From Actinomycetota bacterium (GTDB taxonomy: Bacteria; Actinomycetota; Aquicultoria; Subteraquimicrobiales; Subteraquimicrobiaceae): a stretch of 64,000 nt of DNA. The position numbers and the translations under genes were made by a program. The notes below the pieces were generated by a model. The model was not told where the DNA came from and made no database searches. It was given only the letters and a program-made list of their open reading frames with translations. Within the stretch, counting starts at the first letter, position 1, and every line of letters begins with the position of its first letter. Below, one piece after another: positions 5,168 to 59,394 of this stretch. Location: contig JASEGB010000004.1 in assembly GCA_030018275.1 (NCBI GenBank), positions 1 to 64,000 of the forward strand. Direction: 5' to 3'.

Positions 5168-5394
5168 TTATGCCCTTGACATAACTCTAGAAATTAAGTT
5201 TGCAAACCCTAAATTCGAAATCCTAAATCCTAAACAAATTCAAAATCCAAATTTTTTGAAATCCTAAACCTTGTTTCATTTTGTTTTGAACTTTGGATTG
5301 TTCAACTGAGTTCACAACGAAGTTTTGGTCATTTAATATTGTTTAGAATTGGCAAAAAAAGCTTCTGCCGTAGGCGATTTATGTCTAACCTATG
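5168..5394. repeat. MITE-like repeat, TAGACATAA family, between carB and carA
   Basis: About 227 bases bounded by a left end reading TGCCCTTGACATAA and a right end reading TTATGTCTAACCTAT. These are imperfect inverted repeats shared with copies at 33859, 43784 and 58859. The interior holds tandem words of the type CCTAAATTCGAAATCC, which recur in inverse orientation near 59150. The right end overlaps carA: on the minus strand ATA GGT TAG supplies the last two residues and the stop of carA. Confidence 0.7.
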
Positions 5395-6551
5395 TTCTCT
5401 TCCTCCATTAACTTCACAAACTGCTCGAATAAGTACCTGGAATCATGGGGACCCGGTGAAGCCTCTGGATGATACTGCACAGAGTAGGCGGGAATATCCA
5501 GACATTGCAAGCCTTCCACAGTCCCATCATTCAAATTAATGTGGGTGATCTCGATGCTCCCAAACTCGGTTTCTCCTTTCCACCCACCAATTGGGATCGT
5601 CTTTCCCACACGCCATTCCCTCTCGCTAACCTTAAGAGAATTTTGATCCACGGCAAAGCCATGGTTTTGGGCCGTTATTTCAACGCCTCCTGTCAGCAGA
5701 TTTTTAACTGGCTGATTTCCGCCTCTATGACCGAACTTAAGCTTATAAGTCCTGCCCCCTAAAGCTAAGGCAAGTATCTGATGCCCCAAACAAATTCCAA
5801 AGATGGGTTTTTTGCCTAGGAGTTTTCCTGTAGTTTCAATGGCGTAAGGCACACCCGCGGGATCTCCCGGACCATTGGATAGCAAAATTCCATCGGGATT
5901 TAAGGCTAACACCTCTTCGGCCTTGGTGCTGGCGGGCACAACGGTTATCTTGCACCCTACCGTTTCAAGAGATCTTAAGATACTGCGTTTTATGCCAAAA
6001 TCAAAGGCGACGACATGAAAGTGCTTAACTCTCTTCGTTTCCCACCATATATGGGGTTTATCAGTGGTAACGTTTTTAACCAAGTCTCTGCCTATAAGTC
6101 CTGGAGATGCCTTGGCTTTCTCCACTAGGCTCTGGGTGTCCAGATCAACTGATGAAAGAACGCCTTTCATGGCTCCCTCGCTTCGAATGTGCTTGGTTAA
6201 AGCTCTGGTATCGATATCCTGAATCCCCACAATGCCGTAAGAATTAAGGAAATTTTCCAGGGAATCCTCAGCCCTCCAGTTACTATAGATTCTGGAGTAT
6301 TCTCTGACCACAAATCCCTCCACAAAGGGCCCTCGAGACTCGTAATCCTCGGAATTTACCCCGTAATTGCCGATATGAGGGTAGGTCATTGTTACTATTT
6401 GACCCGCATAGGAGGGGTCGGTCAACACCTCTTGATACCCAGTCATACTGGTGTTAAAGACGACCTCTCCTACTGCCTCACCAATTGCCCCAAAAGCTGT
6501 TCCCTCATATGTGGTTCCATCTTCCAATGCCAATATCGCCCTTTCCCTCAT
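5385..6551 (-). CDS. carA: Carbamoyl-phosphate synthase small (glutaminase) subunit
   Basis: Class I glutamine amidotransferase that releases ammonia from glutamine and channels it to CarB. The N-terminal CarA-specific domain starts [14 protein letters not shown]. The C-terminal triad is visible as the cysteine in GICLGHQ and the histidine and glutamate in HPEASPGP. I chose ATG at 6551, giving 388 residues: AGGGGA lies eight bases upstream and homology begins there. The open frame extends to a TTG at 6596 overlapping the pyrC stop, but those 15 extra residues are encoded by a degenerate TCGANNCTC direct repeat and are unlikely to be translated. The stop codon comes from the end of the adjacent repeat element. 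Confidence 0.95.
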
Positions 6552-19289: not shown

Positions 19290-19614
19290 GTGTTTCTTCT
19301 TGAGATTTGCCTCTAGGAGATCGGAAAATTCATTTTCAAAGGGAGAGTAGTAATAGGTTTTCCTCTTACCATCGGGTGACTTTGGGTACTATACATCGTC
19401 ACGGGTGAAAGCATTACGACAAGAAAATCGGAATCAAATTGGGGCTCGAAATAAACATTTATGGACTCCAAGAATGCAGGTGCCTAAAAAATTGCATTTG
19501 TCTTGCGTGACTCCTTCAACGAAAATTTGAAAACATATTTGGTTCCACCAAGTTCACTTAATAAAGCATGGAGCAAACCTAAAAATCAATTTTGAATGCA
19601 AGTATCTTCTTCAT
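19284..19614 (-). pseudogene. cas6: Decayed, truncated cas6 remnant
   Basis: Cas6 is the endoribonuclease that cuts CRISPR transcripts within the repeat. Reading the minus strand from ATG 19614 across a TGA or frameshift near 19585, an in-frame TAG near 19482 and a frameshift near 19380 recovers a Cas6-like middle segment: MLSPVTMYSTQ, then PDGKRKTYYYSPFENEFSD, then LLEANLKKK, matching the Cas6 pattern LSPI-V-YST...GKKKTYYYSPFE-EFSELL-NL-KKY. The C-terminal half with the glycine-rich loop is missing; the sequence passes straight into the orphan CRISPR repeat. Three or more lesions make it non-functional. The family call rests on this one motif block. Confidence 0.6.
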
Positions 19615-25274: not shown

Positions 25275-25577
25275 GAGCAGTGCTCCTCAAGCGCCTTGGA
25301 TTTGTTTTAGCTCAGATTTAACCTGGACTATTAACAAGATGGGTTAACACTATGGTCGGGATGAAGTGCTTCGAATGTCTAAAGTTTTCATAGATGTAAA
25401 CCTAACTCGTTAATAATATATTAACCTGGTCTAAAACAAGCTCTATATAGCTTACCCGAGACCATTATAAACTGCAAGACTTTTTTAATTTTCAAGGTTG
25501 TAGATTTTTGAATATAAATAAGCACAGCCCGTACGGACTGTGCTATGAAAGCGACAATCAAATCTCGCTCAAATTGA
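25275..25577. repeat. MITE-like repeat, CTATTAACRAG family, plus ftsZ terminator
   Basis: Gap between ftsZ and pgeF. Bases 25328-25419 form an element starting CTATTAACAAGATGGGTTAA and ending CCTAACTCGTTAATAATA. Its left interior (CACTATGGTCGGG..GAAGTGCT) is the reverse complement of the right interior of the copy at 28898-29159, so the two lie in opposite orientation. The rest holds the ftsZ terminator and no gene. Confidence 0.65.
25522..25550 (-). terminator. ftsZ terminator
   Basis: Hairpin GCACAGTCCGTACGGGCTGTGC on the minus strand (25522-25543) followed by TTATTTATATT, about 30 bases after the ftsZ stop. The T-run is interrupted, so read-through into pgeF is possible. Confidence 0.65.
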
Positions 25578-28870: not shown

Positions 28871-29209
28871 GATGTCACCTTTTTACCCTGAGCTGGACTA
28901 TTAACGAGTTTGGTTTACACATATATTTAAGGGAGGAGTAAGTGTTAAGAAAGTGTCGGAGCCTCGCTTATGAAAACTTTTGAACAGACTCACAGTTCTG
29001 TAGCGAGGCGAGACCCGAGCGGCCCCGAAGGACTCGTTTCACTCGCCAACGGGGTAAACGGCCGTAACTGCGTCTGCCCCGTAGACGCGACAGCGTTCTT
29101 CGGGGTGTTTTCGGAGCACTTCACCCGACCATAGTGCTAACCCATCTTGTTAATAATACATCTGAGCCTTCCAGCTTAAACTCAAAAATATATGGAAGCC
29201 CTAGCAATC
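28871..29209. repeat. MITE-like repeat, CTATTAACGAG family, long copy
   Basis: The ftsQ-murB gap. Element ends are CTATTAACGAGTTTGGTTTA (from 28898) and GCTAACCCATCTTGTTAATAATA (to 29159). The interior is GC-richer than its surroundings and folds, with GTAGCGAGGCGAGAC and GAGCCTCGC inverse strings and a CCCCGAAG/CTTCGGGG pair (29015/29098). No reading frame resembles a transposase, so mobilisation would have to be in trans. Confidence 0.65.
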
Positions 29210-33831: not shown

Positions 33832-33858
33832 AAGCGTTAACTCCACCTATATTAGATT

Positions 33859-34001
33859 TATGCCATAGACATAATTTCAGAAAGGTGGCTCAAATCCTAA
33901 ATTCAAAATGCTTTGTGCTTAGAATTTGAAATCATCCTTTGCTTAAAGATAATATTTTGGCAAAAGAGCTTCTGCCGCAGGCGATTTATGTCTAACCTAT
34001 A
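33859..34001. repeat. MITE-like repeat, TAGACATAA family, between murD and ftsW
   Basis: 143 bases bounded by TGCCATAGACATAATT and ATTTATGTCTAACCTAT. The whole element is present inverted at 43784-43920, including the interior strings GGTGGCTCAAATCC, AAATCATCCTTTGCTTAA and CTTCTGCCGCAGGCG. Its right end supplies the TAG stop of murD (ATA TAG GTT AGA on the minus strand). Confidence 0.8.
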
Positions 34002-35370
34002 TTGGATTTCTAAAACTCAATACAGTCTCCTTGAAGACTTCCCCCCTCTCCTCAAAATTAGAGAACATATCGAAACTGGCACAAGCTGGAGAGAAAAGTA
34101 CCACATCTCCCAACTTCGCCAGTTCCTTTGCCATAAAAACGGCTTCTGGAACGGAGGAGGCGCAATGAACCTTTGATCCCTTACCCAAAATAGCTTTAAT
34201 TTCTGAGGTAGCCTCCCCGAATAAAACCACGGCTTTTACTCTCTTCTTAATCTCTCGAGCCATATCTTCAAAGCTATTTCCCTTATTCCTTCCCCCCAAA
34301 AGCAAAATTACGGGGCGATTAAAAGCCGTTAAAGCCTTAATCGTCGCCCCGGGATTGGTGGCTTTGGAATCGTTATAATAATCTATGCCATCGATGGTGA
34401 GGACATATTCCAATCTGTGTTCAACTCCCGAGAAATCGCAAAGGGCTTGATTTATGGCTTCCGGGGGAACCCATGATAAAAGAGCAGCTGCAGTAGCCGC
34501 AAGGGCGTTATCTAAATTATGCTCGCCTTTTATCTTCACTCCATCGACGTCGCAGATTTCGGTTTCATTGCCCCTCAAATTGGCCACAATTTTATCGCCT
34601 TTTATATAGACCCCCTTTCCGAATGTCCTAAATTTACTGAAGGGCATCAGGGTAGTTTTCACGGCGGGGAGAAGCCATCGAGCTAGAGGATCATCGTAAT
34701 TTACTACGGCGTAATCTCCTTTATCCTGGTTTAAAAATATCCGACTTTTTGCCTGGATATAATCCTCGAAATTCACGTGCCAATCCAAGTGATCCTGTGT
34801 GATGTTGAGAAGTACACCGATATGGGATTTAAAATGAACTATATTCTTAAGTTGAAAACTCGAAAGTTCTACGATTAAGGTGACGCCGTCTTTGAGTTCT
34901 TCAATGCATTTTACCAAAGGATGTCCGATGTTCCCAGCAACGATGGCTGGGCGTTTGGCCCTTTTAAAAATCTCCCCCAATAATAAAATGGTCGTTGTCT
35001 TCCCATTGGTTCCCGTGACTCCAATTATGGAAACACTGAGCTCTCTCAAGTTAATGAGAGAATAGGCGAGTTCGATCTCGCTCCACACAGGGATGCCGCG
35101 TCGCCTCGCCTCTGCCAGGAATGGTATTTTATCGGGAACGCCCGGGCTGACAACCACCAACTCTTTGCCGTTGAGATCATCAAAACTATGATTCCCCAAC
35201 CTGGTGCTGATATCCTTTTTCTCCAATTGCAAAGCCCTCTGTTCAAGGACAGTATTCCTGGCACAATCCACTATGGATACCGATGCGCCCAAATCATTCA
35301 GCTTCTCTGCAGCGGCCATTCCACTGCGAGCCATTCCCACTACGAGTACTTTCTTCCCAGAAAAATCCAT
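33997..35370 (-). CDS. murD: UDP-N-acetylmuramoyl-L-alanine-D-glutamate ligase
   Basis: ATP-dependent Mur ligase adding D-glutamate. 457 residues: KKVLVVGMARSGMAAAEKL at the N terminus, VIGVTGTNGKTTTILLLGEI-type P-loop split at about residue 112, NITQDHLDWH, the carbamylated-lysine region and YNDSKATNPGATIKAL, all typical of MurD. The stop codon is provided by the end of the adjacent repeat element, so the last residues may differ from the ancestral C terminus. Three bases separate it from mraY. Confidence 0.97.
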   Translation of the reverse strand: MDFSGKKVLVVGMARSGMAAAEKLNDLGASVSIVDCARNTVLEQRALQLEKKDISTRLGNHSFDDLNGKELVVVSPGVPDKIPFLAEARRRGIPVWSEIELAYSLINLRELSVSIIGVTGTNGKTTTILLLGEIFKRAKRPAIVAGNIGHPLVKCIEELKDGVTLIVELSSFQLKNIVHFKSHIGVLLNITQDHLDWHVNFEDYIQAKSRIFLNQDKGDYAVVNYDDPLARWLLPAVKTTLMPFSKFRTFGKGVYIKGDKIVANLRGNETEICDVDGVKIKGEHNLDNALAATAAALLSWVPPEAINQALCDFSGVEHRLEYVLTIDGIDYYNDSKATNPGATIKALTAFNRPVILLLGGRNKGNSFEDMAREIKKRVKAVVLFGEATSEIKAILGKGSKVHCASSVPEAVFMAKELAKLGDVVLFSPACASFDMFSNFEERGEVFKETVLSFRNPI

Positions 35371-36387: not shown

Positions 36388-36671
36388 CTAATCTTCCTTA
36401 TCCCAAACTATTGAAACTTGAAATTATGGAGTGTCGTAAATCTAATCTCTTGTGCCCTAAACATAAATAGAGTGACTTTAAGAGCCATCCTTACAGGCGC
36501 TAGCTGCTGCCCCGACTTGTCGGGGAGCCTGCGGCCTTTGAGCCGCGCGGATGACAATTTAGCACTGCAACAAGAGCAGTCTAAAGCGAACCCCAAGCTC
36601 AAGGCCCTTTGTTTTATTCACAACCAGGAACTATGACCCACACTTGAAATTGTGAATGTACATAGAAAGTT
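36388..36671. repeat. Composite repeat patch between mraY and murF
   Basis: No gene is visible. From 36450 GTGCCCTAAACATAAATAGA begins a TAGACATAA-family end whose interior (AGAGCCATCCTTACAGGCGC) is the inverse of 45020-45070. It runs into a CCCCGACTTGTCGGGG hairpin at 36510-36525, then AGCCTGCGGCC, and ends in CTATGACCCACAC near 36640, similar to strings at 14040 and 59240. Confidence 0.6.
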
Positions 36672-41933: not shown

Positions 41934-41977
41934 TTACCTGCCTGCCCGTCCGGCAGGCGGGCCTACCGGTAGGCTAG
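41934..41977. repeat. GC-rich palindromic element at the rsmH 3' end
   Basis: CCTGCCCGTCCGGCAGGCGGG followed by CCTACCGGTAGGC: same family as 18703 and 18914. It is translated as the tail of RsmH and provides its stop codon. Confidence 0.85.
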
Positions 41978-42884
41978 GTATCTTTTCCGCTGCGCGTAAT
42001 CTTGCGCTATCCGCCCGCGGATTTGCTTCAATCTCTTCAGGACTTGGCCTTATAGGTCTCCTTGTTAAAATCTTGATCGAAGATTTTCTGCCACATTGGC
42101 AAATTGGTATCGAAGGTGGACATATACAACCCCTCGCCAACTCCTTGAAAGTATCCTTAACGATCCTGTCCTCCAAGGAGTGGTAAGATATGGTTACTAT
42201 CCGACCTCCAGGTTTAAGCCACTTAACTGCATCCCTTATGGCTCTATCCAAATCCTCAAGCTCTTTGTTAACCTCTATCCTCAGAGCCTGGAAAGTTCTT
42301 CTAGCCGGATGTCCTCCTCTACGACGAGCCGAAGCGGGAATTGCGTCTTTTATGATCTCCACAAGTTGAGTGGTTGTTTTGATATGTTCCCTTTCCCTAG
42401 CTTCTACTATGAAGTGAGCAATTCTAGATGCCCACCTCTCCTCCCCATATCTTTTGATAATGGATGCTAATTCTGCCTCCGAATATGTATTAACCACATC
42501 CGCAGCAGTTAATTTCTGTGAAAGATCCATTCGCATATCCAAGGGAGCTTCAAATCTATAACTGAAACCTCTTTCGGGTGCATCCAATTGAGTTGAGGAA
42601 AGACCGAAATCAAAGAGAATGCCATCTATCGCATGAATACCTAAATTGTGAAGAATTTTATCGAGATTTTTGAAATTGTCCTTAATTAATTTGGTTTGCT
42701 GGCTGAAGCGTGCATTTTCTCTTGCTGCTTCAATTGCTGTTTCATCTACATCGATCCCTATTAAGAGACCTCCTGGTGCGATTAAATCTGCAACCGCCTT
42801 TGCGTGTCCTGCCCCGCCTAAGGTGCAATCTACGACGATGCTGCCATCCTTGCAATTAAGTTGCTTTAGGACTTCAGCCAGCAA
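41934..42884 (-). CDS. rsmH: 16S rRNA (cytosine-1402 N4) methyltransferase
   Basis: SAM-dependent methyltransferase of the 30S decoding region. Motifs: DCTLGGAGHAKAV (SAM motif I), GILFDFGLSSTQLDAPERGFSY, ARRGGHPARRTFQALRIEVN and VTISYHSLEDRIVK. Two oddities. TTG 42884 is the only standard start, yet the family motif HKPVLLAEVL begins six residues upstream in the same open frame, which continues to 42932 without ATG, GTG or TTG; AGGGGGTGAT sits ahead of an ATC at 42923. At the other end the last eleven residues (PVGPPAGRAGR) and the stop codon are encoded by the palindromic element at 41936. The real N terminus is unknown. Confidence 0.93.
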   Translation of the reverse strand: MLAEVLKQLNCKDGSIVVDCTLGGAGHAKAVADLIAPGGLLIGIDVDETAIEAARENARFSQQTKLIKDNFKNLDKILHNLGIHAIDGILFDFGLSSTQLDAPERGFSYRFEAPLDMRMDLSQKLTAADVVNTYSEAELASIIKRYGEERWASRIAHFIVEAREREHIKTTTQLVEIIKDAIPASARRRGGHPARRTFQALRIEVNKELEDLDRAIRDAVKWLKPGGRIVTISYHSLEDRIVKDTFKELARGCICPPSIPICQCGRKSSIKILTRRPIRPSPEEIEANPRADSARLRAAEKIPSLPVGPPAGRAGR

Positions 42885-42900
42885 AACCGGTTTATGCTCA

Positions 42901-42956
42901 AACTTTTTTGAAAAAAGTTTGATTAAAAATCACCCCCTGCCGGTCAGGCAGGTCTG
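42901..42956. repeat. Inverted repeat and palindromic element at the rsmH 5' end
   Basis: A perfect AAACTTTTTT-G-AAAAAAGTTT inverted repeat (42900-42920) lies where the rsmH N terminus should be encoded, and CCCTGCCGGTCAGGCAGG (42935-42952), a short palindromic element, lies just upstream of the GGGGGTGAT ribosome binding site. Together they occupy the mraZ-rsmH junction. Confidence 0.7.
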
Positions 42957-42975
42957 TACTTTTGAAAGATCAATT

Positions 42976-43407
42976 CTATATGCTAAATTCGGGTAGATGC
43001 TCGGCGACCTCAGCATAAGATTTCTCAGCTTGCTTTCGGTAAGTTTCCCACTTCTCCCTATTCCAAATCTCCAATCGATTTGAAACACCTATTATGACCA
43101 CATCTTTATTTAAGCCTGCGTATTTTCTCAAATGATCGGGGATCAAAACTCTACCTTGTTTATCTAAAATCCCTTCTTTCGCCCCTGAAAAGAAGCAGCG
43201 AGAAAATTGACGCGCATCTTTCTTAGTTAATGGCAAAAGCCTTATTTTATCCGCCAACTGTAGCCACTCCTTGCGAGAGAAGATGAACAAGCATTTTTCC
43301 ATTCCCTTAGCAATGAACAAGCCATCCGCCAGAGCATCTCTAAACTCCGCTGGTAGTATCAATCGTCCCGTACTGTCCAATGTGTGATGAAATTCACCTG
43401 AGAACAC
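42976..43407 (-). CDS. mraZ: Transcriptional regulator MraZ
   Basis: AbrB-like DNA-binding protein that represses its own division and cell-wall operon. 143 residues with two MraZ repeats: GEFHHTLDSTGRLILPAEFRD at the N terminus and GAKEGILDKQGRVLIPDHLRKYAGL in the middle. It is the first gene of the dcw cluster and its 5' leader holds four TGGNN boxes at ten-base spacing, its own predicted binding site. The start is GTG at 43407. Confidence 0.96.
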   Translation of the reverse strand: MFSGEFHHTLDSTGRLILPAEFRDALADGLFIAKGMEKCLFIFSRKEWLQLADKIRLLPLTKKDARQFSRCFFSGAKEGILDKQGRVLIPDHLRKYAGLNKDVVIIGVSNRLEIWNREKWETYRKQAEKSYAEVAEHLPEFSI

Positions 43408-43425
43408 GCCACTAAGATCTCCTCA

Positions 43426-43460
43426 TCCCAATTTACCCCATTTCAAACCATTTCCTTCCA
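43426..43460 (-). promoter_or_regulatory. MraZ operator: four TGGNN repeats
   Basis: The minus strand carries TGGAA, TGGTT, TGGGG and TGGGA, each starting exactly ten bases after the last (43460, 43450, 43440, 43430). This matches the direct-repeat operator architecture reported for MraZ (TGGGN spaced by five bases). The boxes lie just after the predicted transcription start. Confidence 0.75.
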
Positions 43461-43468
43461 TACCAACT

Positions 43469-43497
43469 ATTCTATCCCAATACTAAAATTCCTTCAA
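43469..43497 (-). promoter_or_regulatory. dcw cluster promoter
   Basis: Minus strand TTGAAG (43492-43497), a 17-base spacer and TAGAAT (43469-43474), directly upstream of the MraZ boxes and mraZ. Confidence 0.7.
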
Positions 43498-43680
43498 TTT
43501 TTTTCATAATTTTTTTAAAAATTTTAGTACTTGGGAAGGCGTTCCGTTTAAAGAGTTTGATGAGCTAGAGCAAACCCGAAGTTTTAAGGGCAGCCTTTGA
43601 GCACTTTGCATTGAATAATTCGATTCTAAAAGGAATCTTAGGGATTTCCGTCGAATAAAAGAAAAATGGAGGTGTATTAG

Positions 43681-43782
43681 ATGATTATAGAATCGGTGCA
43701 AACACTTTGGGCTCTTTGTCTATTCGTGATAGCGATCCTCGCTATTGTGATGGGGGTAATAGCTTACCGCTCTATTAAATAA
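43681..43782 (+). CDS. Small single-span membrane protein (33 residues)
   Basis: ATG at 43681 is preceded by GGAGGTG at six-base spacing, a near-ideal ribosome binding site. The 33-residue product has a short acidic N terminus (MIIESVQT), one hydrophobic helix of about 22 residues and a basic end (YRSIK), an N-out/C-in arrangement by the positive-inside rule. It diverges from mraZ. I do not recognise the family and no function can be given. The TAGACATAA repeat begins right after its stop. Confidence 0.55.
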   Translation: MIIESVQTLWALCLFVIAILAIVMGVIAYRSIK

Positions 43783-43783
43783 A

Positions 43784-43920
43784 CTATAGGTTAGACATAA
43801 ATGCCCGCAGCTCTTTTTGCCAAACTGTTCTTAAGCAAAGGATGATTTTAAATTCTAAGCACAAAGCATTTTGAATTTAGGATTTGAGCCACCTTTTTGA
43901 AATTATGTCTAGGGCATAAT
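43784..43920. repeat. MITE-like repeat, TAGACATAA family, inverted copy
   Basis: From CTATAGGTTAGACATAAATG to ATTATGTCTAGGGCATAAT. Reverse complement of the element at 33859-34001 over nearly its full length. Confidence 0.8.
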
Positions 43921-43934
43921 AAACCATTTTTGCT

Positions 43935-44224
43935 TCAAAATTCCCTGCATGTGTAAGGTTTTTGCTCACACTTCGGGCATCCCTTGCTATACTTATTCAC
44001 TGCCATCTCCTCTAAGTTGACATCGCATAGAGAAGCCAAACTAACGAGCCAGGCAAGTACATCGGCGAATTCTCCCTTGAGTTTTGTGGTATCCCCAATC
44101 TTAAAGCCCGAGCCAGCTCCCCGACTTCTTCGGTAAACCACACAAAGGTTCCATCAATCCCCCTTCGATTGTCCTTTTCAAAATAAATCTCCCTTATAAG
44201 GTCTTGAAACTCGTAAATTCTCAC
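43935..44224 (-). pseudogene. Frameshifted MazG-like nucleotide pyrophosphohydrolase
   Basis: Members hydrolyse nucleoside triphosphates to monophosphates, often as house-cleaning. The first frame (from 44224) gives MRIYEFQDLIREIYFEKDN and FVWFTEEVGELARAL, carrying the E-E-x-x-E metal site. A one-base shift near 44100 moves to the second frame, KIGDTTKLKGEFADVLAWL (the E-x-x-D half of the site), ending KYSKGCPKCEQKPYTC, a C-terminal cysteine motif seen in a small MazG subgroup. Joined, the two parts make a complete protein of about 95 residues, so the lesion is either a very recent mutation or a sequencing error. Confidence 0.75.
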
Positions 44225-44254
44225 TTCTACCTCCTTATGCTCCGCTAAGCAGCT

Positions 44255-44659
44255 TTATTCTTTATTTCCACGAATTTTGTTTGTGCTTGTCCCTTGATCT
44301 TGAAGACTGATGGATTTACCAGGAACCTTTGGAACCCTCGGGATCTTTGGTTTCGGAGGTGTAATGATTCTCCCCTTCTTAAGAGCCACCCTCTTCTTTG
44401 TCTCCAGCAACTAACAGCTTTATCTCACTGAGTCTATTTTCCGCGAATTTTAGGTGCAGCTGGGCTTTACTATAATCGTCAAAGGCAAAGACCAGTTGAA
44501 CTCGTTCCATGGCTATCTTCAAGGGATAAAGTGGGAGTAAATGTATTCATAAACGCGATCGAAATAGATATCGTATAACATCCCAAAAGCTTCACTATCT
44601 CTTACTTTTGCTCGTTCCACAATGTCCTTTAAGTCTTGTGCTGTCTTTAAAGGTGTCAT
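44255..44659 (-). pseudogene. Chimeric remnant: ECF sigma N terminus fused to DUF5667 protein
   Basis: From ATG 44659, behind GGAGGAATTA, a 46-codon frame reads DLKDIVERAKVRDSEAFG and LYDIYFDRVYEYIY, the region 2 start of an ECF sigma factor, then stops. In an overlapping frame from about 44535 the sequence becomes PLYPLKIAMERVQLVFAF and KAQLHLKFAENRLSEIK, the core of the DUF5667 domain of secreted proteins often encoded after such sigma factors. After another shift a proline/lysine-rich tail (PPKPKIPRVPKVPGKS) ends at 44255. An internal deletion appears to have removed most of the sigma gene and the start of its neighbour. Confidence 0.6.
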
Positions 44660-44830
44660 TAATTCCTCCGTTTGTATAAACGTGAAAAGAATTTGAAAGA
44701 TATCTTCTAAAAGAACTCTTTTATTTATTTATGGAATCACCGAGATTTCCCTCCAAATAAATGGAATTTAATACCCTAATGCTCGCTCTCAGAAGAAAGC
44801 TCAGCAATGATGATGAGCCTCTGTCTAGCA

Positions 44831-44923
44831 CTATGAGATGTCAGTGAATATCAGATACATAAGCATCAGAACGCCAATGACGATGAATAATTTTCCAATG
44901 GGTTTTAAAATGTTTATTTTCAT
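44831..44923 (-). CDS. Possible 30-residue membrane peptide
   Basis: ATG 44923 to TAG 44831 encodes MKINILKPIGKLFIVIGVLM and a further hydrophobic stretch: a basic N terminus plus one membrane helix. AGAAGGGA directly abuts the ATG, so the ribosome binding site is poorly spaced. No family is recognised; it may be a signal-anchor remnant of a lost gene. Confidence 0.3.
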   Translation of the reverse strand: MKINILKPIGKLFIVIGVLMLMYLIFTDIS

Positions 44924-44987
44924 TCCCTTCTCTAAAATTAAGCAAAGCGAACAGGCAATCCTATGATACCAAAATAAATATAATACT

Positions 44988-45076
44988 TTATAGCCTAGAC
45001 ATAATGTAGGCTCGCAGCAGCTAGCGCCTGTAAGGATGGCTCTTAGAGATCACTCTACTCTATGTCTAGGGCACGA
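44988..45076. repeat. Short TAGACATAA-family repeat
   Basis: 89 bases from TTATAGCCTAGACATAATG to CTCTATGTCTAGGGCACG, with near-perfect inverted ends. The interior (GCAGCTAGCGCCTGTAAGGA) is the inverse of 36460-36508. Confidence 0.75.
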
Positions 45077-45094
45077 TACTTTTTAAATGGACAA

Positions 45095-45130
45095 GCGGGT
45101 GATCCTTCATCAGAAATCACCCGCTTTTTC
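45095..45130. terminator. Intrinsic hairpin downstream of surface-protein pseudogene
   Basis: GCGGGTGAT and ATCACCCGC arms (45095-45103 and 45116-45124) with a 12-base loop, followed on the plus strand by TTTTTCTC. On the minus strand, where the upstream gene lies, the T-run is weaker. Confidence 0.6.
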
Positions 45131-45157
45131 TCTGAGATTCTAATTTATTTAGTTTTT

Positions 45158-46245
45158 TCATATCCTCCGGGAACCAACGAGCTGCAGAACAAAACCAACG
45201 ATTATCAGGAGTATTGCTATTGCTAAATAGTATAATAACTCAAACCCAGTGGGAGGAAGCTCAGGTGGATAAGGCAATACCTCAGGTACAGCTTCTGGAT
45301 AAGGTAGAACCGCTGGAACTACTTCTGCAACGGATATTTCGACCGATGCCTCCCTAGGTTCTAGAATCTCGTGACATCTAATTACCGCGATATTTTTAAT
45401 GACTCCAGAGGCGGTACTGTCGACGGTGACTTGGAAAGTGACGGTTCCACTGCTACCAACGGGCAGCGCACCAATATTCCACGTAATTGTGCGCGTATTG
45501 GGATCATAGACGCCACCATGGCTTGCACTCCCCTCCACATAGGTCAAACCCTCTGGAATTTGATCGGATATTACTACACCCGTGAGGTCAACATTGCCCG
45601 TATTCTCAAAAGTTATAGTATAGGTGACAATCTCTCCCCTGGAAACGTTGATTTATCGGCTTGTTTTGTGATAGTGAGTTCGTAGGTTACCGGGGTTATT
45701 ATTACCACGGGTATGCTCAGTGACCAACCCACCATAGTGGAAACAGTCATTCCCAAAGAATCGGTACCAGTTGCCGTGGCCGTGTTCACCAGGGGATCCG
45801 GATCTGTTGCGGATATGGTGTAGTCCTTGGTGAAGGTCTTCTCCTCACCGATGGCGAGGCTCTCACCGGTGACCACGGTTCCGGCTTTGTCGTCGACTAT
45901 GGTGACATCGGTCAAGGGACAGTCCCCGGTGTTTTTCACGATATAGGTGTAGGTTATGGTATCACCCACGTGTGCCAAGCTTGGACCACTCTTGGTGATC
46001 GAAATTGCGGGATGTAGGATGTCCACCGAGTGTGAATCGGTATCGGTTACCGTGGCACCGAGCTCGTCAGTGCCTGTTGCGGTAACGGTGTTCACCAGGG
46101 GATCCGGAGCACCTTCTGGAATTGTATAGTCCTGGGTGAAAGTCACCTGTTCACCTTTCGGAAGATGACCGATATGGTGCTCCCAGCTTGCACCGAATAA
46201 TGGGTCCGTAACGGAAACAGCAACAACAGGTAGATTCAGCCTCAA
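45158..46245 (-). pseudogene. Frameshifted, N-terminally truncated LPxTG surface protein with DUF11 repeats
   Basis: Fragment of a cell-wall-anchored protein. The first frame (from TTG 46245) contains DUF11/beta-sandwich repeats with recurring PDPLVNTVTATGTDELG and ITKSGPSLAHVGDTITYTY blocks, and ends after FPGERLSPIL. A one-base shift near 45640 restores the repeat (VTYTITFENTGNVDLTGVVI) into the second frame, which ends in a proline-rich stalk and the sorting signal LPPTGFE, a hydrophobic helix and GSRRI. No signal peptide precedes the first repeat, so the 5' part of the gene is gone. It implies a sortase elsewhere in the genome or the ancestor. Confidence 0.75.
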
Positions 46246-46380
46246 TTCGACATCTTACTAATTTTTCCTACTAAAAAGCATAAATTAAGTACAAGCTCTT
46301 TGTGTCGCCCAAATTGCCGTGCATCCTTGAATATGATTTAATGAAATTGGAAGATATTACTATCCATTTAACCTTTATGA

Positions 46381-47031
46381 GTGAATATGAAGCCACTACT
46401 CCAAGTAGCTTTAGATATCACAGATAGGGAAAAAGCTTTAAGGTTGGCTGCGGAGACAGCAAACTTCGTAGATATCATCGAAGCCGGGACTCCATTGATT
46501 AAAACCGTGGGTTTAAGTATAGTACGCGAACTCAAAAGGTTATTCCCGAAAAAAAGTATTGTCGCGGATATGAAAACAGCAGATGTAGGAGCTCTCGAAG
46601 CGAAATTGGCGTTTGAAGCCGGTGCCGATTTGACCACGGTCCTGGGGTCAGCTTCCCTATTCACAATTGAAGAAGCGATCTTAGAAGCAAAAATTCACGG
46701 GAAAAAGGTGATGGTGGACTTAATCGGGGTGGAAGACAAGCTTACCAGAGCCCAAGAGATACAGAGATTGAATCCAGATTATATTGGGATTCACACTGGT
46801 ATTGATGAACAAGTAAAGGGTAAAAGCCCATTTCAGAACATTCGGGAACTCATCAAGTTGAAAGTACCCCTCGCTGTTGCGGGAGGAATCAAACTTGAAA
46901 ATCTGGAGCGCTTAAGGGAATTCAAACCGGCCATAATCATAGTGGGCGGGGGCATAATTAGAAAGGAAAAGCCAGGGGAGGCGGCAAAAGCAATCAAGGA
47001 AAAGATCAACGAGCTCTGGCCCCAAGATTAA
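46381..47031 (+). CDS. hxlA: 3-hexulose-6-phosphate synthase
   Basis: Condenses formaldehyde with ribulose 5-phosphate to hexulose 6-phosphate in the ribulose monophosphate pathway, or runs in reverse to make pentose. 216 residues, the orotidine-monophosphate-decarboxylase fold: LQVALDITDREKALRLA, EAGTPLIKTVG, and the signature VADMKTADVGALEAKLAFEAG (about 61-81), then AVAGGIKLENL and VVGGGI. The DxKxxD motif is present. ATG 46387 may be the true start; GTG 46381 is two codons earlier. It is followed 21 bases later by hxlB. The plus orientation sets this pair apart from its neighbours. Confidence 0.93.
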   Translation: MNMKPLLQVALDITDREKALRLAAETANFVDIIEAGTPLIKTVGLSIVRELKRLFPKKSIVADMKTADVGALEAKLAFEAGADLTTVLGSASLFTIEEAILEAKIHGKKVMVDLIGVEDKLTRAQEIQRLNPDYIGIHTGIDEQVKGKSPFQNIRELIKLKVPLAVAGGIKLENLERLREFKPAIIIVGGGIIRKEKPGEAAKAIKEKINELWPQD

Positions 47032-47052
47032 AAGTATTCGAGGTGAAAATAT

Positions 47053-47622
47053 ATGTATTATCGGGAGCTCTTAGACAGGATTGATGAGGTTACCTCCAAA
47101 ATCGATCCACTGGAATTTAAAAAAATTGTGGATATCATCAAAGAAGCACGAAGAATTTATATCATTGGTGCTGGAAGGAGTGGACTGGTGGCCAAGGCCT
47201 TCGCTATGCGCCTGGTGCACTTGAGGAAAAGAACCTTTGTGGTCGGGGAAACCGTGGTTCCGGCCATGCGTAAGCAGGATATTTTGATAGCCGTCTCTGG
47301 CTCCGGAAGAACCAAATCCGTAGTCGAAATCGCCAAAACAGCCAAGTCCATTGGAGGTAAAGTAGTAGCGGTAATCGGGGATAAGCAATCCGAACTTGCA
47401 CAACGCTCGGATTTAATCGTGGAAATTCCAGTGCCCAAAGTGAAGGACGTCATCACCAGTTACGATTCCCGGCAGTTGATCGGTAAAATAACCCTAGTTC
47501 CTCTGGGCTCGCTCTTTGAACTCTCCGCCATGATATTCTTCGAATGCGTCATTGCCGAGTTGATGAGAAAGCTCGAAATCAGCGAAGAGGAAATGAAGCG
47601 GGAGCACACCATTTTAGAATAG
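47053..47622 (+). CDS. hxlB: 6-phospho-3-hexuloisomerase
   Basis: SIS-domain isomerase converting hexulose 6-phosphate to fructose 6-phosphate, the partner of HxlA. 189 residues with IYIIGAGRSGLVAKAFAMRL, VGETVVPAMRKQDILIAVSG, SGRTKSVVEIAKTAKSIGG and the C-terminal FECVIAELMRKLEISEEEMKREH split motif. Length and motifs are standard. The TTG or ATG start ambiguity does not arise: ATG 47053 follows GAGGTG. Confidence 0.94.
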   Translation: MYYRELLDRIDEVTSKIDPLEFKKIVDIIKEARRIYIIGAGRSGLVAKAFAMRLVHLRKRTFVVGETVVPAMRKQDILIAVSGSGRTKSVVEIAKTAKSIGGKVVAVIGDKQSELAQRSDLIVEIPVPKVKDVITSYDSRQLIGKITLVPLGSLFELSAMIFFECVIAELMRKLEISEEEMKREHTILE

Positions 47623-47682
47623 CCATTAATTTTCAACAACACTTTTTGCGTTTTCTCTTGCCGCTGGGGAATTTCAGGATCA

Positions 47683-47707
47683 ATAAAAGCGAGGCTGAAA
47701 GCCTCGC
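47683..47707 (-). terminator. Terminator of the GT81-like gene
   Basis: On the minus strand GCGAGGCT-TTC-AGCCTCGC (47689-47707) followed by TTTTATT, ten bases after the glycosyltransferase stop. Confidence 0.8.
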
Positions 47708-47717
47708 ACTCCCACGT

Positions 47718-48968
47718 CTATGCCTTCTCGAAAAGTTTTGTCGCCCTTTTCACTAGGTAAGATTTAAGCTCTTCAAAGATTTGGGCTTGATTCTCAATTA
47801 ATTGATCGGCTTTCTTCATCGAGATATCCTTCGCCTCCAAAATATAAGAGGCTGTACGACCATAATAAAGAGGTGTCATCATACTGACCAGTTTTTGCTT
47901 GTCCTTCTTCCACTTCTTATAATTTAACGCAAAATCGTAAACTACTCTCGCCCACAAATCCGATGGAAAGTTAAATTCATCGCGACTTAAGAACACACTT
48001 TCAACCTCGTTAAAGCTCTCTTCGGATAAAACTTCCCTCCACAAAGGACTAAAATGACCAAACCCAAGACAAAAATTTTCGATGAGATCCTGCACGGAGA
48101 CCTTTATTGGTTCCGGTTCAACCTTTGGAGCTCGTCCATAAAAATCAACTTCATCACTTTCCTTAATCCTGTACAACTTATCCTCATGCTGAGCCATGAG
48201 GGTAAAAAGAGTCCCTGCGACCTGTCTAAACATGGGACCTAAAGTTGTCGGTTCCCTCCCGGTATGGACCTTTGTGCCCAGTCGAGATTGACAAATCTTG
48301 ACTCCTTGCTCAATCGCCGTTATCGTAAGCCAGATATCGATACCATATTTGGCCACATCGGTTTCCCAAACATCCTGCTTTATATAGAAGTCAAAGAGCT
48401 CTCTAGAGATGCCAAACTCTCCTCCAATTGGTTGACGGATTCTTTTACCAAAAATGGCTCTAGTGAGGGGATAAGCGAGGAGCTTGGTGATGGTTCCATC
48501 ATATTTGTGACGCGTATAATAGGGTGCTACGAATTCGTATTCACCCTTCAGAATGGGATCCGCAAGGAGTTCTATCCACTCGGGAACAATGCTTTTCAAG
48601 TCGGAGTCCACCACAATTATAACATCGGCTCTCAAAGCATAACCGATCTCAAATACTGCCCGGAGGGAAGAACCTTTTCCAGGTAGTCCCCGGTAAATGG
48701 TGACCAATCTCTCAACACCTGCTGAGCGGGGAAGGTCTTGAGCAATCTCACGGCTGTCGTCGGTGGAACCTCCATCGGAGACCACGATCAAAGATCTTTT
48801 ATTAGGGGAATATTTACGCAAGCCGGTCTCAACGGTGTTTATAACATAACCCACGGTCCTCTGGTTATTGTAGCAGGGGATACCGACCAGTACATCAACC
48901 TGACCTATCTCTTTGATCCTTGATCTAGCTTCATCACGAAGTGCAGTGGCAAATATCGTAATAATCAC
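47718..48968 (-). CDS. GT81-like glycosyltransferase (glucosyl- or mannosylglycerate type)
   Basis: Family 2/81 GT-A glycosyltransferase, 416 residues. DVLVGIPCYNNQRTVGYVIN, VVSDGGSTDDSREIA, a GKGSSLRAVFEIGY segment and the metal site VVDSDLKSI (DxD-like, about 119-127) are visible, then IGGEFGISRELFDFY and GIDIWLTITAIEQG. This layout resembles glucosylglycerate/glucosyl-3-phosphoglycerate synthases, which make compatible solutes or the first sugar of methylglucose lipopolysaccharides. The acceptor cannot be determined here. The C-terminal 130 residues are helical. It stands alone, convergent with hxlAB. Confidence 0.75.
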   Translation of the reverse strand: MIITIFATALRDEARSRIKEIGQVDVLVGIPCYNNQRTVGYVINTVETGLRKYSPNKRSLIVVSDGGSTDDSREIAQDLPRSAGVERLVTIYRGLPGKGSSLRAVFEIGYALRADVIIVVDSDLKSIVPEWIELLADPILKGEYEFVAPYYTRHKYDGTITKLLAYPLTRAIFGKRIRQPIGGEFGISRELFDFYIKQDVWETDVAKYGIDIWLTITAIEQGVKICQSRLGTKVHTGREPTTLGPMFRQVAGTLFTLMAQHEDKLYRIKESDEVDFYGRAPKVEPEPIKVSVQDLIENFCLGFGHFSPLWREVLSEESFNEVESVFLSRDEFNFPSDLWARVVYDFALNYKKWKKDKQKLVSMMTPLYYGRTASYILEAKDISMKKADQLIENQAQIFEELKSYLVKRATKLFEKA

Positions 48969-49050
48969 CCCTTCTCAATATGTTCACCGTTCGCGGTTCA
49001 CAGTTTGCCCCAAACAAATATAAGTATTAACAAGTTCGTAAACATTACTA

Positions 49051-51204
49051 CTACCTACTAAGATCAATGACCTTATCCGCATAGGCATCATATCTATCAC
49101 TGCAGGTAAAAAGGATTATCTGGTACTCCTTTGCGATTTCTTTGACCAATTCCATGGTGTTCCTCAATCTTTCATCATCGAAGGTGATAAAGGGATCATC
49201 GAAAAGCAAAGGAGGCTTTTTGCCCTTGGAAATGAGCTTGACCAAACCCAAACGAGCTGATAGATAGATCTGGTCGATGGTTGCCCGACTGAGTTCTCCG
49301 GCTTTTACATAGTCCTTCTTTTCCTCAGAGTAGACGAAAAACTCCAAATTTTCCTGATTTACTTTTACCCTGTTATATTTACCATTGGTTATTATGTTAA
49401 TATATCTGGAAACCTCTTCCTCCAAGACCTTCGTCGCCGAGCGTAGAGTGGATTCTCGGGCTTCATCTATGCTTTTCAATACAAGCTCATAAACTCTTCG
49501 TCGCCTTTGGTAGAATTCCAGCCTCTGTTGTAAATCGGCGAGTTTCTCATCAATGGCTGCCAAATCCTCAGAGGTGGCTCTAGCTTTGGAGATGACGATC
49601 TCCAACTCCTTTTTCTCCTCATCGATTGCCCTTTTTTTCTCCGCCAGATCCTCTATTTCCTGGAGCAACTTCTGAAACTGCTCAGGATCGAGGGCTATGG
49701 GATCGAGGCTTTCCCACTCCTCCTTCTTGGCATTACGATCCAGAGCTAAGGTTCTTGACTCCTCCACCAAATCTTCAATCGATTTGTCCCCTAGAATCCC
49801 GCTCAATTCACTATCCTTCGCCAACTTTTCAGCGCGGAGGGGTTTATACTTCTCATATCTCTCCAAGCACTCAGTGGCAGTTTTACACCTCGCTTTAGCC
49901 AAAAGATATTTGATTTGATCATTTATTTCGGTTATCTGCTCTTCGACTTTAATCTTTTGATACCTTATTTGAGAAACTACCGTTCCCAGATCAACTTGGG
50001 GCTCGGGTTTTATGCGTAAAACTCCATAACCGGCTACCAGCAGACCAACAATGGCCAAAATGAGCATAAACTTTGAAAGAAAAGCACCGATAATGCCCAA
50101 TAAGAGGAGGATCGTACCCAAGATCAAAGGGTAATTACCGGTGGGAGTGGACTGGAGCTGAAGATCTATCTGCCCTGCCGGTCCCAAAGGGAGGCTTCGC
50201 TCTAGGCGGGCCTCATGGTAGGCAAGGCTTGGTTCCACCAGTTGCTGCTCTAGAGAGTCCCTCATTTGCTCCAAAGATTGCTTTCTGCCAAGGAGAGTGC
50301 GAAGTGCATCCACGTCTTCATCCTCTATTTTCTCCAAGAAGCTGTAGGGTTTGAGCCTCTCATTAAGATCATCGATCTCGTGCTTTATACCAAAGGCGCG
50401 TTGGATATTCTGGTAGCATTCCTCGATTTTCTCCAGTTCTTGCTCAAGCCATCGCCTCCTCTCATTCCTACACTTAAGATTCATTTTGGTGGAAAGTTCT
50501 GTACTTAAATCCTTCAGTTCCCTTTCCACTTCAAAAAGTCTGGTGCTGGTTCTCCGAACTTCCTCTATCTCATCCTCCAGTTGTCTCCGCTTCTCCTCCA
50601 GTTCAGCAATGGCATTGGAAAGCTTTTGAATTTCCCCAGGATATTTTGTTATTTTGCCCTCCCCTTTGATCAGCTCTTTTAAAGTAACTTTTAACCTTTC
50701 ACAAGCCCAAGAGGCGGTCACCTCATCCTCCCCCGTAATCGTTGCTTGGAGACTATCACCTATTTCTCTCTCCCCTTTGGATATCTGCGCCACCCTATCC
50801 TGCTCAATACAGGCCGTACTTTTGAACACGGCTGCTGAACTGAAGCCCAGCCATTGCCCCACTTTTTCACCGACTTTTACGGGATCGATGATCTCCCGAG
50901 GAAGACCATCACCAATCAAAGTGAGCTTCTTGGTTTCAAAATCCTTATGAAGTGCATAATTTGCACCTTCATCTTCGACATCGAGGCCTATTTCGTACAT
51001 CCTCTCTGAACCCCAAGAGATCAAATTCCTGACCTCCTTCCGCCTGTGGGAAGGATTAAAGAATAATCCAGCAATTAAGGCAGAATGGAGCGTGGATTTT
51101 CCAGCTTCATTGGGTCCCTTAATCACATTGAGACCGGGAGAAAGCTCCGCCTCTAAATCTCGAAAACGTTTGAATCTCTGAAGCTTTATCTTCTTTATGA
51201 TCAT
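49051..51204 (-). CDS. SbcC/YhaN-like ATPase with a central membrane hairpin
   Basis: SMC/Rad50-type ATPase, 717 residues. Walker A is GPNEAGKSTLHSALIAGLFF (about 31-50), coiled coil follows (about 180-290), then a hydrophobic pair of segments (LILGTILLLLGIIGAFL, LILAIVGLLVAGYGVL, about 365-400), a second coiled coil, the signature-like LSRATIDQIYLSARLGLV and Walker B PPLLFDDPFITFDD (about 665-678). It overlaps the nuclease-like gene upstream by four bases. The membrane hairpin in place of a zinc hook is the YhaN feature. Just before it an in-frame palindromic element encodes EARLERSLPLGPAGQ. No frameshift is seen. Confidence 0.85.
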   Translation of the reverse strand: MIIKKIKLQRFKRFRDLEAELSPGLNVIKGPNEAGKSTLHSALIAGLFFNPSHRRKEVRNLISWGSERMYEIGLDVEDEGANYALHKDFETKKLTLIGDGLPREIIDPVKVGEKVGQWLGFSSAAVFKSTACIEQDRVAQISKGEREIGDSLQATITGEDEVTASWACERLKVTLKELIKGEGKITKYPGEIQKLSNAIAELEEKRRQLEDEIEEVRRTSTRLFEVERELKDLSTELSTKMNLKCRNERRRWLEQELEKIEECYQNIQRAFGIKHEIDDLNERLKPYSFLEKIEDEDVDALRTLLGRKQSLEQMRDSLEQQLVEPSLAYHEARLERSLPLGPAGQIDLQLQSTPTGNYPLILGTILLLLGIIGAFLSKFMLILAIVGLLVAGYGVLRIKPEPQVDLGTVVSQIRYQKIKVEEQITEINDQIKYLLAKARCKTATECLERYEKYKPLRAEKLAKDSELSGILGDKSIEDLVEESRTLALDRNAKKEEWESLDPIALDPEQFQKLLQEIEDLAEKKRAIDEEKKELEIVISKARATSEDLAAIDEKLADLQQRLEFYQRRRRVYELVLKSIDEARESTLRSATKVLEEEVSRYINIITNGKYNRVKVNQENLEFFVYSEEKKDYVKAGELSRATIDQIYLSARLGLVKLISKGKKPPLLFDDPFITFDDERLRNTMELVKEIAKEYQIILFTCSDRYDAYADKVIDLSR
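50171..50222. repeat. GC-rich palindromic element in frame inside the SbcC-like gene
   Basis: GCCCTGCCGGTCCCAAAGG, GAGGCTTCGCTCTAGGCGGG and CCTCATGGTAGGC: near copy of the element at 18914-18968. It lies in the coding sequence and keeps the frame open, adding about 16 residues ahead of the membrane hairpin. Confidence 0.85.
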
Positions 51205-58741: not shown

Positions 58742-59394
58742 AATCCCCTCCCGTACTCAAGAATTCTTCTTTGACGCCTAAATTCCTCCAAGAAATATTG
58801 CTACAACTTCGACCCTTCCATGAAATTTCCTCTTTCTCTCCATGATCATCAAAACCAATTATAGGTTAGACATAATTCGTCTGAAGCGAAGAAAGCTCTT
58901 ATTTCGCTAAAAAACAGGTTCTCTTGGGTTTAAATTCTAATCCTTCGACAAGCTCAGGACAGGTTTCAAAATCCTAAGCACTAAACAATATCAAATACCA
59001 AAATGACACTCTAATTGTCATCCTGAGGGCACGGAGTGCCCGAAGGATCTCATATTCAGAAGAGATTCTTCGTCCCCTTCGTTTCACTCAGGGTCCTCAG
59101 AATGACAGCTTTGTTGTCTGTTTAGAACATTTGAACATTAGATATTTGGATTTGTTTAGGATTTAGAATTTCGGATTTAGGGTTTTTAAAGCCTTACTTT
59201 TTGGAATTATGTCTAGGGCACAAAACTAATGTGTATATATAGGTGGGTCATAAATTACCAAATATACTATTCTGAAGGAAGTGAGCTGGGAGGCGACTCT
59301 GAGCACGCCGTTAAACCCCGACTCATCGGGGAAGAGCTGCGGCCCTGATGAAATCGAGGGCACTCTGAGAACTGAGGGAGTAGGGAGGGCATAA
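58742..59394. repeat. Gene-free repeat region of 650 bases
   Basis: No gene. A long TAGACATAA-family element spans 58859-59222 (left TTATAGGTTAGACATAATTC, right GGAATTATGTCTAGGGCAC). Inside it is a second hairpin repeat, TGTCATCCTGAGGGCACG at 59009-59030 pairing with CCTCAGAATGACAG at 59094-59107. From 59238 a different patch begins ATAGGTGGGTCATAAATTAC, contains CCCCGACTCATCGGGG (59316-59331) and inverse CTCTGAG words, and runs to the ATPase gene. Confidence 0.65.

Follow-up and report, generated by a model that had tools for sequence, protein, structure and literature searches.

Fungal mitochondria have tiny GC-rich mobile hairpins, called GC clusters or double-hairpin elements, that nest in one another and also enter coding sequence. 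In Nostoc, small dispersed repeats (SDRs) of 21-27 nt, which Elhai et al. are said to have described in 2008, reportedly nest into their own copies and are clade-restricted; to our knowledge, SDRs are not known as in-frame protein insertions. Alongside these Nostoc repeats (mentioned in PMC2884548), palindromes that are read as protein have long been known from Rickettsia, where the Rickettsia palindromic elements (RPEs), of about 150 bp and in ten families, lie in frame in many unrelated genes, with some copies noncoding (PMC10969869). Palindromes of 20-40 nt inside genes, the intragenic GTAG/CGTC REPs, are described from several species, often in replication and repair genes (uvrA, dnaE, recBCD) and also at gene ends; Actinomycetota are not among the phyla named for them in the excerpted text of that report (Di Nocera et al. 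2013, PMC3733652). The Y1 transposases of IS200/IS605 and RAYT systems recognize single-stranded hairpins and leave no target duplication (PMC6006769).

The GC-rich hairpin repeats borne by dozens of genes in Candidatus Subteraquimicrobium (Actinomycetota, class Aquicultoria), a deep-subsurface actinobacterium, share features with all of these. Like RPEs they lie in frame in many unrelated genes; unlike RPEs they consist of 21-nt units nested to 42 or 63 nt, well short of about 100-150 bp, use five frames, and belong to Actinomycetota. The element thus works like an RPE but is not one, the likeness being functional and the distinction one of described length and architecture. As palindromic repeats of 20-40 nt in many copies they resemble REPs, from whose GTAG/CGTC class they differ in their exact 21-nt units, three-level nesting, empty sites in congeners and lack of a flanked RAYT; and, unlike the mostly intergenic REP/RAYT repeats, 18 of the 24 sites of the basic unit examined in the source genome are genic. 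Nostoc SDRs, by their description, match in size class, in the nesting of small palindromic units and in clade restriction, whereas our units occur in another phylum, in frame in proteins, and the third unit differs in sequence from the other two. The fungal mitochondrial elements, as described, are organellar and longer. Unique junctions and absent target-site duplication set the repeats apart from MITEs; the same junctions would fit the Y1 systems, unlike which no linked Y1 gene and no element ends were found. In-frame palindromes as such are already known from Rickettsia (PMC10969869), and intragenic REPs from several species (PMC3733652); what is new is exact 21-nt nesting at three levels, direct empty-site evidence in three congeners, a contrast between 20- and 21-nt units, and the taxon. 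The nested 21-nt units are the more unusual part, compared with in-frame insertion itself.

The source genome, G000 (1.49 Mb in 38 contigs), was aligned at orthologous sites with two congeners, G001 and G002, whose identity to it is about 96% and 92% (over 87 and 96 kb, respectively). The window is the whole 64,000-nt stretch analysed (G000:C4:1-64000), and positions given without a contig refer to it; site counts refer to sites examined in chosen stretches, rather than to a complete genome census. The core of the element occurs seven times in G000, never in a backwards-pattern control and in none of 57 genomes outside the genus, and the family is therefore not a product of chance. A literature search found no publication on Subteraquimicrobium or containing the 14-17-mers of the element.

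Three units make up the architecture. U1 is a 21-nt hairpin, CCTGCCTGYCGGYAGRCAYGG; a second 21-nt unit, U2 (CTGCCCGTCCGGCAGGCGGGC), is sited within U1, and a third, U3 (21 nt, TCCCAAAGGGAGGCTTCGCTC), whose sequence is unlike either, within U2. Between the three genomes, most length differences at orthologous sites are of 21, 42 or 63 nt; target duplications are absent, and element-bearing genes gain 7, 14 or 21 amino acids without breakage. Among 48 pairwise element-like indels, drawn from loci picked for the element and from non-independent pairs, 19 are of 21 nt and 11 of 42 nt; a few are not multiples of 21 (18, 26, 36, 39, 51 and 60 nt), those in gene interiors being multiples of three.

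The initial annotation of the window listed five copies of one GC-rich element, at 18703, 18914, 41936, 42934 and 50171, and all five places carry sequence as described. The copy at the 3' end of rsmH (mraW; 41934-42884, minus strand; PF01795, E=1.4e-113 over residues 1-302 of 316) is a 42-nt element, U1 with U2 inside (41937-41978, plus strand), which adds PSLPVGPPAGRAGR in frame ahead of a pre-existing TAA. The site holds 42 nt in G000, none in G001 and an 18-nt U1 remnant in G002; U2 matches exactly (41942-41962, plus strand), and in alignment G000 differs from G002 at this point by a 21-nt insert. The G001 gene closes with ATA|TAA, and the G000 insert falls between those two codons, so that the old TAA stop is reused. 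The copy had been read correctly as 3'-terminal coding sequence, but it contributes 14 residues rather than eleven, and the stop attributed to it is already present in G001. The gene for a YhaN/SbcC-like AAA ATPase (49051-51204, minus strand; 717 aa; PF13514/PF13476) carries a 63-nt element of U1, U2 and U3 (50164-50226, plus strand), with an exact U3 at 50182-50202 (plus strand). Both G000 and G001 have the full 63 nt, and G002 has a 21-nt U1-like part only; its in-frame position was as annotated, while the proposed gain of about 16 residues gives way to 14, the extra part relative to G002 being 42 nt within the 63-nt element.

Of the remaining copies, the one annotated at 18914 is real and lies not in a gene but in the ileS T-box leader (18836-19148, minus strand; RF00230, 112.2 bits), where a long-form element of U2 and U3 (18911-18967, plus strand) occupies the unpaired stretch that links stem III to the T-box/antiterminator. 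Its U3 (18932-18952, plus strand, exact match) is absent at the orthologous G002 site, which is exactly 21 nt shorter, and the extra part in G000 is exactly TCCCAAAGGGAGGCTTCGCTC. Between the T-box and ileS is a short-form element (18696-18734, plus strand), a U2 with one mismatch and CAGAC/GTCTG arms. The string CCTGCCCGTCCGGCAGGCGGG at 18704 recurs unchanged at 41941, and the long forms at 18920 and 50170 share 93% identity over 44 nt. Between mraZ and rsmH lies the fifth copy, a short palindrome (CCTGCCGGTCAGGCAGG; 42936-42952, plus strand), which belongs to the family but weakly: it is common to all three genomes, so presence/absence lends it no support.

Nesting is read directly from sites at which one unit differs. 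U1 is otherwise intact and lacks U2 in another genome at C8:39475, C15:19258, C15:5835 and C7:863. At C7:863, U2 stands in opposite orientations in G000 and G001, and G002 has U1 alone, which reflects either two independent insertions or inversion of the hairpin loop; the host at this site (C7:863, L206; G001:C7:2901, L103) is a FecCD/BtuC permease gene. In the same way, a U2 that is otherwise complete lacks U3 both at the T-box site and in comEC, where G000 has the short and G001 the long form and the difference is the same 21 nt as the extra part of the T-box copy (TCCCAAAGGGAGGCTTCGCTC). A 42-nt difference separates genomes at the intergenic site C2:79250. Two palindromic inserts met in larger stretches, outside the site selection (C8:22737 and C4:88773), are both 21 nt and both genic. 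Three sites (C5:17927, C9:51857 and rsmH) are occupied in G000 and G002 and empty in G001, a pattern that suggests precise excision or recombination.

Palindromic inserts of 21 nt but of unrelated sequence were also observed at G000:C2:80389 (L083; GCCCCAGGCCCCTTTTCGGGG), G000:C5:48402 (L093; CCCCGACTCGTCGGGAGCGGG) and G000:C4:88773 (L225; CCCCGCCTGCCCGTGGGGAAG). One mobile sequence does not explain them, and they suggest that the 21-nt length is not bound to one sequence family.

For U1, counting both strands, and hence palindromic copies twice, there are 48 matches in G000, 34 in G001 and 55 in G002, with none for the backward control, and U1-only copies are numerous in each genome. Given a coding density of about 86%, the placement of U1 relative to genes (18 of 24 G000 sites in ORFs) is near-random. 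Orthologous comparisons gave a difference of exactly 21 nt 17 times and of 20 nt four times (at three sites), the unit being shared in nine; junctions are unique and lack target duplication. Units were gained at orthologous sites in both orientations, and the frame was kept in gene interiors: a check of genic copies for frame breaks found all 13 interior U1 indels to be exactly 21 nt. Units of 20 nt are confined to three sites, two of them close to gene ends (15-16 nt away) and one intergenic (Fisher p=0.006 for the 20/21-nt contrast by location). Five of the six reading frames are used, yielding unrelated peptides such as PACRQTR, GLPVGRH, PCLPTGR and VPTGRQA. A filter best accounts for survival in frame, with both 20- and 21-nt units being made and only the latter persisting inside genes. 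The units are poor in stops, though shuffles that keep their composition are just as poor; the idea that openness in six frames is a special design of the unit found no support, such shuffles being open about equally often.

Hosts identified by NCBIfam and Pfam comprise SbcD, B-family DNA polymerase (PolB), DnaA, DnaN, RecO (two copies), RadA, UvrA and XerC/D, together with a dGTPase, ComEC, RNase R, LeuS, ArgD, TrpE, a GlmM-like protein, RsmH and the YhaN/SbcC-like ATPase; those of G002 include topoisomerase I (topA) and PcrA. Copies in TrpE and at C15:5835, C7:863 and C5:17927 are near the predicted start and may lie upstream of it. Distant UvrA, DnaN and RsmH were checked for the inserted residues and lack them: UvrA exceeds its solved homologues by about 14 residues and DnaN by seven, and RsmH homologues stop before the inserted tail. 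In RadA an older, eroded copy lies past the part that can be aligned to solved RadA. Of the three genomes, only G000 has the DnaN copy and one of the RecO copies, and these copies are therefore gains, the outgroup proteins being without the residues. By a strict count, 8 of 35 element-bearing genes serve replication or repair (p of about 5e-4 to 2e-3, against a background of 5.5-7% that is assumed from general knowledge), an enrichment that is only suggestive.

Overall, it seems probable that the element is a very small, non-autonomous mobile hairpin built on a 21-nt unit, nested, and filtered for frame by selection. U1 would insert in either orientation without target duplication, and further 21-nt units would enter the centre of the palindrome, U2 into U1 and U3 into U2, generating the 21-, 42- and 63-nt forms. 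Insertion would be almost blind to genes and reading frame, selection purging the copies that break frame; many genic insertions would be tolerated, given a unit length divisible by three and a GC-rich sequence that seldom has a stop codon. Since insertion would be near-blind and selection would only remove frame breakers, the inserted peptides may be regarded as passengers rather than a selected domain. Movement would most likely occur in trans as a single-stranded hairpin, by peel-and-paste of the Y1/HUH type, with occasional precise excision. A bolder formulation, which we offer only tentatively, is that the 21-nt hairpin independently transposes and precisely excises, ranking among the smallest mobile DNAs known, moved in trans by a Y1/HUH or other enzyme, and that the machinery fixes a length of 20-21 nt whatever the sequence, feeding seven-codon blocks to proteins.

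Y1 transposases are natural candidates as movers because they act on hairpins and leave no duplication, and the case for the Y1/IS200 type is only suggestive. A strict RAYT/REP system, with REP-associated tyrosine transposases encoded in the genome itself mobilizing the units as REPs, appears somewhat unlikely. It draws on three Y1_Tnp genes each in G000 and G001, on a unit size and palindromic structure matching REPs, on junctions consistent with Y1 chemistry, and on IS200-type Y1 proteins above 90 bits in 5 of 7 U1-bearing genomes outside the genus as opposed to 2 of 50 others (p=1e-4, a value that ignores phylogeny, four of the five being from one family). However, the genus itself has only RAYT-like Y1 genes and none of the >90-bit IS200 type; the Y1 genes of G000 and G001 are not flanked by element copies; a Y1_Tnp search in G002, which carries elements, found none; and the GTAG/CGTC signatures (GGTAGG and CCCGTCC) sit inside the element palindromes rather than as unpaired tags at an end. 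Distinctly less probable is a history mainly of loss, in which ancestral 42- or 63-nt elements were trimmed by replication slippage or by hairpin deletion between short repeats (CCTGCC...CCTGCC, 21 nt apart), the 21-nt steps being deletions. Repeats of the CCTGCC type do flank U2 at 21-nt spacing, both are the local variant CCTGTC in the G002 copy at the C15:19258 site, and the three sites empty in G001 resemble precise loss; but at the T-box, rsmH and C2:79250 the differences in U3 or in the whole element lack flanking repeats from which an exact deletion could arise, and neither the absence of the residues from distant UvrA, DnaN and RsmH nor the confinement of the DnaN copy and one RecO copy to G000 fits loss.

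Selection for the inserted peptides on account of some benefit, for instance the tuning of replication and repair proteins, we regard as very unlikely. The replication/repair share noted above, topA and pcrA in G002, and the same gene bias reported for other intragenic REPs (Di Nocera 2013, PMC3733652) speak for selection of this kind; yet five frames give unrelated peptides, presence is not conserved between genomes of 96% identity, the background fraction is assumed, and repair genes are long. An artefact of assembly or binning at palindromes in metagenome-assembled genomes is hardly credible, although palindromes do disturb assembly and G001 has N gaps at some copies: independent assemblies have the same sites, with flanks that match and substitutions of their own, lengths are exact, and frames are kept.

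Across the class, the distribution of U1 alone is patchy. Allowing no more than one mismatch, it was found in 12 of 198 related genomes, control matches being almost nil; these are the genomes of the genus, two further members of the order, four from a single other family (with 17 to 86 matches, on both strands) and a few others. In two genomes of another family of the class (G012 and G024; loci L330-L349), U1 is present in high copy and is intergenic at 25 of 33 sites, so that its placement differs from that in Subteraquimicrobium (p=2e-4) and offers a natural contrast to the genic U1 there. A search for U3 (TCCCNNNGGGAGGCTTCGCTCC) in a genome contig collection returned, among the matches listed, which may leave out the source genome, only Ca. 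S. carltonvillense and four chance matches lacking a flanking palindrome; one match in viral contigs was likewise judged to be chance.

The annotation's broader proposal, an in-frame palindromic repeat family resembling RPEs in a Gram-positive-type genome, is borne out, as a functional resemblance and not as membership; it came through both of the checks named for it, on distant orthologues and on frame breaks in genes. In three close genomes the same genes have sites that are full, half-filled or empty, which allows in-frame survival to be interpreted as a filter acting on a 20/21-nt unit, and lets the order of nesting, the orientation and the excision be seen at the sites themselves. Core proteins such as the sliding clamp, the initiator DnaA and UvrA tolerate ready-made inserts of 7 and 14 residues. 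The genus thus offers a new natural model for studying the conversion of mobile DNA into protein, and the enzyme question becomes testable with 21-nt oligonucleotides.

Other repeats were seen in the window. A single match to a CRISPR-DR2 direct repeat (19261-19290; 38.5 bits) is probably chance or a relic. An intergenic, MITE-like repeat of about 270 bp (28891-29160), starting near TGAGCTGGACTATTAACGAG, has more than 20 copies in G001, and a 104-nt relative near 25320-25423 is present in G000 and absent from G002. A small family, GCAGCAGCTAGCGCCTGTAAGGATGGCTC adjoining a CCCCGAC.GTCGGGG hairpin, is represented at 11865-11904, 36476-36525 and 45014-45048. A second dispersed family of about 90-150 bp, with TTATGTCTAACCTAT, occurs in both orientations at 33857-34003, 43831-43919, 5355-5396 and 58852-59190, and has many copies in the congeners.
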